23,001 nucleotides of DNA, from IMG/VR virus record IMGVR_UViG_3300027134_000005, positions 1-23,001 of that record; one strand, given 5' to 3'. Origin of the DNA: a virus. Positions within the stretch are counted from its first letter, which is position 1; every line of letters begins with the position of its first letter. Below the pieces are notes generated by a model, which searched no databases, was not told where the DNA came from, and was given only the letters and a program-made list of their open reading frames with translations. Of this stretch, positions 1-18,004 are shown one piece after another. The position numbers and the translations under genes were made by a program.

Positions 1-229
1 GAGGCGGAATGTTGTCTGCAGTTAGTTGCAGAGTTGTTTTGCCTAGTGGTGCGAGATGGGCAATGTCTTCAATAGGTCCGACATCACGTTTAACATCAGC
101 AGCAGAGCCAATAGGAGTGGGAGAGGGAGTATTGGCGAACGAATTTTGTGAAGCCAAAAAGCCGCCTGCAGCAGCGCTAAGCAAACCAAACCCTTTAAGA
201 AAACCACGTCTAGCATTTGTATTCTCCAT
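1..229 (-). CDS. Tat-signal exported protein, C-terminus off left edge
   Basis: The reading frame is open from the ATG at 229 to the left edge, so about 76 N-terminal residues are visible and the 3' end is missing. Residues 6-12 read ARRGFLK, a good match to the twin-arginine motif (S/T)RRxFLK. A hydrophobic stretch follows (GFGLLSAAAGGFLAS, about 13-27), then a possible signal peptidase I site after NSFA (about 30-33). The mature part starts with a Pro/Thr/Ser-rich linker (NTPSPTPIG). This predicts export of a folded protein through the host Tat system. The visible mature part (DVKRDVGPIEDIAHLAPLG) is too short to assign a function. It is the last gene of the leftmost block, just after a small membrane protein. 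The Shine-Dalgarno is weak (GGAC about 9 nt upstream). Confidence 0.75.
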   Translation of the reverse strand, partial: MENTNARRGFLKGFGLLSAAAGGFLASQNSFANTPSPTPIGSAADVKRDVGPIEDIAHLAPLGKTTLQLTADNIPP

Positions 230-2822: not shown

Positions 2823-3239
2823 TCAACTCCAAGTTCTGTGTACTTCGGCAATGTGTTCCATGCCGTCATATTCTTCAATTGTGTATTCAACATCATCAGG
2901 TACATCAACAACAGTTAACTCAGCAAATTGACTACTGGCAGCATCGCCCAATTCTTCAATTGCCTGAATCAGTGCTGGGTCATTGCGGGCAACCTCTCCA
3001 TCATAGAAAACTTGTTTGGAGTATGCCTCATTGTATTCCCGACGTTCTTCCATTGGAAGTTTATAAAAATCAGCACCTTCTTTGGGCTCCAAACGATCTT
3101 CCGGTGGGACTACCCAGTACGTCCAGTAATATTCTTTCCGATCTGGATATACAGTCATGCCTTTGATTTCGCAGTATCGCAGGACTGCTTCGTGGCTCAG
3201 GCCAAAGCCACCAAAACAACGATTAATTGCAACTTTCAT
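2823..3239 (-). CDS. conserved phage protein of the 'MKVAINRCFGGFGLS' type (138 aa)
   Basis: Starts MKVAINRCFGGFGLSHEAVL with GAGGTA 5 nt upstream. The opening block NRCFGGFGLS and the later AxFYKLPxEERxEYN-like segment are familiar from many tailed-phage genomes. Residues about 80-105 (ARNDPALIQAIEELGD) and the C-terminal ELTVVDVPDDVEYTIEEYDG are also typical: a beta-rich end in which 'DV' precedes 'YxIxEYDG'. No catalytic residues are known. It lies 8 nt downstream of the AAA+ ATPase. Confidence 0.82.
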   Translation of the reverse strand: MKVAINRCFGGFGLSHEAVLRYCEIKGMTVYPDRKEYYWTYWVVPPEDRLEPKEGADFYKLPMEERREYNEAYSKQVFYDGEVARNDPALIQAIEELGDAASSQFAELTVVDVPDDVEYTIEEYDGMEHIAEVHRTWS

Positions 3240-16676: not shown

Positions 16677-17522
16677 TCACAACTCTGCTGAGTTGGAAAC
16701 ATCAACTCTATTCTTCCTGGTTGATCTTGCGGGTTGTTTAAGTTCACCGCTATTAATATCATTATCCACATCGTCATTCTCCTTAGTCCATGTTACTATT
16801 TCCCAATGTCCATCGTGATACTCTACCAATGCAGTACATGACTCTACCCAGTCGCCATCGTTCATGTAGGTGACTCCGTCAATTTCTTTTATTTCAGCAT
16901 GATGTATGTGTCCACATATAACTCCGTCAAATCCTCGTTTCTTACAATATTGAGCTAGATTGTGTTCAAAGTGAAATATGAAATCTACTGCTTTTTTGAC
17001 CCGGTGTTTAAGGAACAGGCTAAGGCTAAAGTACCCAAAACCAAAATGATGACGAATCCAATTAATCCCAGTATTGAGTCTAAGAATGAAATCATATGCT
17101 TTGTCTCCTAACATTGCTAACCAAGGGGCAAGACGAGTGATACCGTCAAACAAATCCCCGTGCACTACGAGGTAGCGTCGACCATCAACACCTATATGTT
17201 CTGCTTGGTTGGTCACTTCTATCATTCCAAAACCAATATCATACTGAATGAATGGTCTTAAAAACTCGTCGTGATTACCAGCCACATACACTACCCTTGT
17301 ACCGCGTTTGCTGTGACCTAGAATTCGACGAACAACATTAGTGTGGGACTGTTTCCATCGCCACTTGTTTTGTTTGATTTTCCAAGCATCAACGATATCT
17401 CCTACGAGATACAATGTATTGCATGAGTTGTGTTTAAGGAAACTATTGAGCTTGTTTGCCTGACAGTCACTGGTTCCTAGATGAACATCTGATATGAATA
17501 TTGATTTGTATTTGGTCTGCAT
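16677..17522 (-). CDS. LpxH-like calcineurin-type metallophosphatase (281 aa)
   Basis: All metallophosphoesterase motifs are present: DVH (12-14), GDIVD (41-45), GNHD (82-85), H121 in VVHGD, and GHIHH (204-208). Together with DWVES (224-228) they match the UDP-2,3-diacylglucosamine diphosphatase group (COG2908, LpxH-like), which cleaves UDP-2,3-diacylglucosamine in lipid A synthesis. The match extends over the bacterial enzyme's whole length, which suggests an acquired host gene. The last 35 residues are a charged extension. Its exact substrate in this phage is not proven; related bacterial enzymes sit beside glycosyltransferases, as here. Confidence 0.88.
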   Translation of the reverse strand: MQTKYKSIFISDVHLGTSDCQANKLNSFLKHNSCNTLYLVGDIVDAWKIKQNKWRWKQSHTNVVRRILGHSKRGTRVVYVAGNHDEFLRPFIQYDIGFGMIEVTNQAEHIGVDGRRYLVVHGDLFDGITRLAPWLAMLGDKAYDFILRLNTGINWIRHHFGFGYFSLSLFLKHRVKKAVDFIFHFEHNLAQYCKKRGFDGVICGHIHHAEIKEIDGVTYMNDGDWVESCTALVEYHDGHWEIVTWTKENDDVDNDINSGELKQPARSTRKNRVDVSNSAEL

Positions 17523-17530
17523 CCATATAT

Positions 17531-18004
17531 TTATCTTCTATAACCAGAAGTTATAAATGATGGAAGAAGTTTACCAACGACACCATCTAAACCTTTAAAG
17601 AAGTTAGCATCGACATCATAATATTGATTTGGAGGAGGATTGTGGTGGAAGTCATTATTTTTAGATGAAGAGACTGTCGATGTGCTTTTACTCGTACTGC
17701 TACTGCTGTTGTTGTTGATCTGCTGTTGATTAACTACTACAACCTTTGTTGAATTGTCTACTACTGCACCGGGAGAATTGACAATGATCGTTCCAATATT
17801 AATATTATCCCCACTGATGTAAACTCCACCACCACTTGGTTTTGGCTTCGGATTCTGAGTAGTTGAGCGAACAGTTGTTCTTTCAACAATAACATCTTCC
17901 ATTAGTATGCTGCTGTTATCTTCTCTAGGAACAGTACTGCAGCCAACCATAGCAATCACACTAGTAAGTATCGAATACTTCAATAGTTCTCTTAACATAA
18001 TCAT
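17531..18004 (-). CDS. phage lipoprotein, Ser/Asn-rich (157 aa)
   Basis: A signal peptide (MIMLRELLKYSILTSVIAMV) ends in a lipobox MVGC with Cys 22 as lipidation site. The mature part is Ser/Thr/Asn/Pro-rich and low in complexity, with strands GGGVYISGDNINIGTIIVN, a QQQINNNSSSSTSKSTSTVS linker and a final block (FFKGLDGVVGKLLPSFITSG). It resembles a membrane-anchored stalk. The first codons overlap the end of the exonuclease gene by 44 nt; an ATG at 17998 is a possible start. It could alter the envelope of the infected cell, but no family is identified. Confidence 0.75.
   Translation of the reverse strand: MIMLRELLKYSILTSVIAMVGCSTVPREDNSSILMEDVIVERTTVRSTTQNPKPKPSGGGVYISGDNINIGTIIVNSPGAVVDNSTKVVVVNQQQINNNSSSSTSKSTSTVSSSKNNDFHHNPPPNQYYDVDANFFKGLDGVVGKLLPSFITSGYRR

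Follow-up and report, generated by a model that had tools for sequence, protein, structure and literature searches.

The open frame at the left end of the window, which is the whole 23,001-base virus contig record, belongs to a hitherto unnamed family of small Tat-signal proteins of uncultured T4-like phages. In the account that we favor as a whole, with a probability of about two in three, a small T4-like phage protein is exported by the Tat pathway and forms an envelope module with a two-span membrane peptide nested in the same DNA.

Tat signal of the window gene and its conservation

The minus-strand frame at positions 229–2 comprises 76 codons, begins with MENTNARRGFLKGFGLLSAAAGGFLASQNSFANT and reads MENTNARRGFLKGFGLLSAAAGGFLASQNSFANTPSPTPIGSAADVKRDVGPIEDIAHLAPLGKTTLQLTADNIPP before running off the contig end, there being no sequence left of position 1. 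The family alignment identifies it as the 5' part of the Tat-signal protein gene (positions 2–229, minus strand), the remainder lying beyond the contig end. The mature domain thus extends outside the window, as the first-pass annotation had stated, and, as the gene is truncated, the mature part of the window protein was inferred from relatives. The Tat signal proposed in the same annotation is borne out by its parts. The twin-arginine box RRGFLK (positions 194–211, minus strand) agrees with the RR/KR-x-F-[LIF]-[KR] pattern conserved in the N-termini of the family, and is followed by a modestly hydrophobic h-region with an AxA-like site (GFGLLSAAAGGFLASQNSFANT; positions 128–193, minus strand). 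The h-region itself, GFGLLSAAAGGFLASQNS, carries no charge, and the AxA-like site reads SFA/NT. The family motif EDIAHLAP (positions 47–70, minus strand) marks the beginning of the conserved mature part. With the NCBIfam Tat-signal model TIGR01409, the window protein scored 16.3 bits at a cut-off of 16.7, two relatives scored above the cut-off (L016, 17.4; L023, 19.1), and L005 and L041 gave no match. With the Pfam Tat-signal model, the window protein fell under the gathering score, and the best family member reached E=0.0017.

Conservation of the twin arginines in relatives had been set beforehand as the test by which the signal could be refuted. The sample was collected by patterns of the mature part only and could not select for RR, so the presence of the pair in all 75 complete N-termini (70 RR and five KR) is not due to chance, and the outcome speaks for a Tat signal. 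After the pair, x-F-[LIF]-[KR] is followed by an uncharged, modestly hydrophobic stretch and then by an AxA-like site. Of the 53 distinct signals, 52 have the phenylalanine of the box, 45 have a following K or R, and 47 have an h-region without charged residues. A loose pattern detected an AxA-like site in all 75 N-termini, 46 of which have a strict A-x-A. In the lineage of L033–L036 and L041, the Tat box occurs naturally as a variant with KR instead of RR (NTKRSFLRG).

The conserved twin arginine in an S/T-RR-x-F-L-K context is that of Tat substrates, with which (TIGR01409/PF10518) the family also shares the weakly hydrophobic, uncharged h-region and the AxA-like site. Unlike those substrates, the family proteins are phage-encoded, have a tiny mature part without a cofactor motif, and lie below the Pfam gathering score. 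The strict conservation of the box in the aligned N-termini supports targeting to the Tat pathway, and the proteins are predicted Tat substrates.

Distribution of the family

Relatives were collected in successive scans, the first of which yielded L002 and the second L005 and L006, while an alignment scan yielded 46 loci and the scan by mature-part patterns 136 loci, of which 80 were kept. The family therefore comprises at least 136 IMG/VR loci. Complete relatives include L002 (139 aa) and L008 (142 aa), the latter with the full gene and, upstream of it, the small membrane protein that also precedes the window gene. None of the 50,697 named phage records was matched by five family queries in tblastn; the neighboring clamp loader gene, gp44, used as a control, matched 2,518 records. 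In the GTDB genomes, a family gene was detected on a single MAG contig (L055). The Tat gene was single-copy in all 32 records tested. The remark of the first-pass annotation that such a signal is rare on phage proteins accordingly stands for named phages but fails for uncultured T4-like phages, in which the gene is common.

Gene setting

In 18 of 37 contexts, a count that includes near-identical contigs, the Tat gene is located between the genes of the sliding clamp (gp45) and the clamp loader (gp44), with gp62 and RegA coming next in most cases. In another nine of these 37, near-identical contigs again included, it comes after an AAA ATPase gene, with PhoH and exonuclease genes nearby. Since the gene often lies within the replisome cluster, its protein is probably made early and is probably not part of the virion; the replication-gene neighbors suggest both. 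The RNase H gene of the window is also T4-like. Among named T4-like phages, gp44 directly follows gp45 in Melnitz and Mosig; DLP6 has one small hypothetical gene of 57-aa size between the two, and C48C1 has several genes and a tRNA, none of which matched the family queries.

In the window-type context, a small membrane protein gene precedes the Tat gene, and small genes, a 5'-3' deoxyribonucleotidase gene and a gene for a protein of an unnamed PHROG are found downstream. The upstream gene, already pointed out in the first-pass annotation, is present at positions 233–403 on the minus strand, directly before the Tat gene, and encodes a single-span membrane protein of 56 aa (beginning MRNVDMDVLVAVVGFIVFFAMMFGAV), a homolog of which lies before the Tat gene in both L002 and L008. 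It has a conserved tail, MTAxEIQAVCGR, and a weak spanin-like PHROG match (E=9e-4).

Elsewhere in the window, an 81-codon frame at 645–890 on the minus strand gave a sub-threshold match to an Xre/MbcA/ParS toxin-binding domain (E=2e-4). A putative lipoprotein with a low-complexity Ser/Asn-rich body and a lipobox recognized by eye (MVGCSTV) is encoded at 17531–18004 on the minus strand, adjoining a calcineurin-like phosphoesterase gene (16677–17522).

Anatomy of the mature part

The family proteins are laid out as a signal, a spacer, the motif EDI[SA]HLAP, a variable and often proline-rich linker, and a C-terminal block with the consensus NxVxMSVGKDNRLWIKVxxxWxRVALE. The suggestion of a folded, perhaps cofactor-containing protein did not hold with respect to the cofactor: the mature part is about 70–105 residues long, lacks both a conserved cofactor ligand and a known cofactor fold, and shows no evident cofactor site, given that none of its Cys residues is invariant. 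For L026, the mature part was predicted (mean pLDDT 82) to comprise one short helix and four strands, of which the final three form a meander; the AlphaFold model at full length was poor (pLDDT 61). Fold searches against the PDB and viral folds found no convincing match for the mature part, and neither sequence nor fold searches returned a match that gives a function.

In L010 (6001–6366) and L117 (2508–2963), the variable linker carries the tail-fiber-like sequences SDGAWGIG and SNGNLGIG, respectively, as if fiber repeats had been captured. In L118 and L119 (both at 2851–3225), KEMATEHKDISH is duplicated in frame immediately before the HLAP motif.

A probable membrane peptide nested in the +1 frame

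In the window lineage, the stretch encoding the signal very probably codes, in another frame, for a second protein, a tiny membrane protein. The candidate, which the first-pass annotation does not mention, is a +1-frame ORF of 57 aa at positions 43–216 on the minus strand, with an ATG at 216–214, a GGAG 7 nt upstream, and two TM-like segments (MLDVVFLKGLVCLALLQAAFWLHKIRSPILPLPLLLALLLMLNVMSDLLKTLPISHH). Between the window and L002, the frame-0 differences at codon positions 1, 2, and 3 number 12, 4, and 2 in the first 60 codons and 6, 5, and 12 thereafter, where the third position is in excess. Across 79 distinct members, the openness of the +1 frame is bimodal, with at least 43 codons open in 16 members (the window included) and at most 24 in the other 63. 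The nested ORF of the carriers spans about 45–69 codons, lies over the signal and the spacer, and has its stop near the spacer end. In 14 of the 16 carriers, it has its start codon in a shared position or close to it, together with a Shine–Dalgarno-like site and two TM segments, while L037 and L068 have neither a proper start nor the second TM segment.

Conservation of the nested peptide was assessed against a recoding null, in which the frame-0 proteins were fixed, the codons were redrawn, and the similarity of the +1 peptides between deep lineages was compared. The similarity reached a mean z of 3.84, vs. 0.9–1.9 in the other frames and 0.68 in ORF-less members, and with the null forced open, the +1 similarity sum exceeded all 300 replicates. 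Synonymous changes are suppressed where the two frames overlap, with three synonymous and 14 non-synonymous changes between the window and L008 and three and 16 between L009 and L005, whereas ORF-less controls show 117 and 73; the pair L011–L022 shows no such suppression. Both reading frames are thus constrained there in the lineages of the window and of L005. The spacer averages 48.8 residues in carriers vs. 37.0 in the others (P=4e-8, with near-relatives counted). These patterns in the aligned genes make translation of the nested ORF probable. A tblastn search with the nested peptide against named phages gave no match. The tree does not support a single-clade origin, as the carriers do not form one clade and four changes are needed, which implies that loss or recombination of the nested ORF was involved.

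Alternative explanations

The N-terminus could be an uncleaved membrane anchor or an RR-bearing Sec signal, in which case the protein would stay in the inner membrane or be exported by Sec. Such a role would agree with the fairly hydrophobic h-region of some members (mean Kyte–Doolittle 1.3–1.7), with scores of the Tat models just around the cut-off, and with the KR of one lineage. It is nevertheless considered unlikely, since what is kept over the 53 distinct signals is the entire box RR-x-F-[LIF]-[KR] and not its charge alone, the loose AxA-like pattern is found throughout, and many h-regions are as weak (mean of about 1) as those of Tat signals. A still less probable alternative is that of a small virion- or fiber-associated protein, with its C-terminal meander and DGxxGIG-like inserts derived from tail-fiber repeats. 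Besides the inserts of L010 and L117, weak tail-fiber PHROG matches in two members (best E=0.004) and a BFVD match to a tail-fiber protein (E=0.8) point in this direction. However, about half of the contexts place the gene with replication genes, the C-terminal domain was sought in the other ORFs of the fetched loci and found in none, and what purpose a Tat signal would serve on a virion protein is not obvious.

As for the nested ORF, a Gly/Ala/Leu-rich frame 0 tends to read as hydrophobic and stop-poor in the +1 frame, so the ORF might be a by-product. The openness of individual genes is consistent with this: given the protein and the local codon usage, P values were 0.04–0.45 per gene, and within-gene shuffles were mostly not significant. 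The by-product explanation appears doubtful in view of the cross-lineage +1 conservation beyond the recoding null, which is absent in the control frames and in ORF-less members, the synonymous suppression confined to the overlap in two lineages, and the spacer length tied to the nested ORF.

The nested arrangement was also compared with that of spanins. In the embedded spanins Rz/Rz1, a single segment of phage DNA encodes two envelope proteins, with the +1 frame used for the second (PMC6139136), and the family shares with them the +1 nesting of an envelope protein and a proline-rich stretch. Unlike in Rz/Rz1, the nested peptide has two TM segments and no lipobox, the outer protein has no coiled coil, and the genes are not in a lysis cassette. 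An embedded two-component spanin was rejected, as the fully read nested peptides have two TM segments instead of a lipobox Cys. An i-spanin with a TM segment and a coiled coil was likewise rejected, the mature part being a linker and a beta meander.

Proposed role in the host envelope

In the proposed Tat-export account, the small phage protein would cross the host inner membrane through the host Tat translocase, and its signal would be cleaved at the AxA-like site. About 70–105 residues would be left in the periplasm, with the EDIxHLAP motif, a flexible, often proline-rich linker, and a C-terminal beta meander. The gene, often in the cluster gp45–Tat gene–gp44–gp62–regA, would probably be expressed early and yield a non-virion protein. 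In the window lineage, a two-span membrane peptide of about 45–69 residues would be translated in the +1 frame, starting at an ATG of its own, and the two products may together form a module in the envelope of the infected cell. That this dual-coded module, a periplasmic Tat protein and a nested two-span inner-membrane protein, alters the envelope, e.g., in superinfection exclusion, is a tentative proposal to which we give slightly less than an even chance.

Superinfection exclusion is the leading guess for the module, but a speculative one with odds well below even, and the link of either protein to it consists of location and size only. The guess is based on an analogy with T4 Spackle (gp61.3), an early periplasmic protein whose mature form has 75 residues and which acts alongside Imm (PMC7677548). 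Spackle, in the periplasm, and Imm, in the membrane, are likewise small, made early by the phage and directed to the envelope. They differ from the present pair, which is marked by a Tat-type export signal and by a predicted membrane peptide nested in the same DNA, and no similarity of the family to Spackle or Imm was found in PHROG matches or PDB folds. Other envelope roles remain, such as lysis timing and envelope stabilization.

A literature search found no report of a dedicated phage family using the host Tat pathway. If the account is true, lytic phages would use this pathway during infection through a dedicated, widespread protein family, and Rz/Rz1 would be joined by a further solution to encoding two envelope proteins in one stretch of DNA, namely a Tat signal overprinted with a membrane-protein gene.
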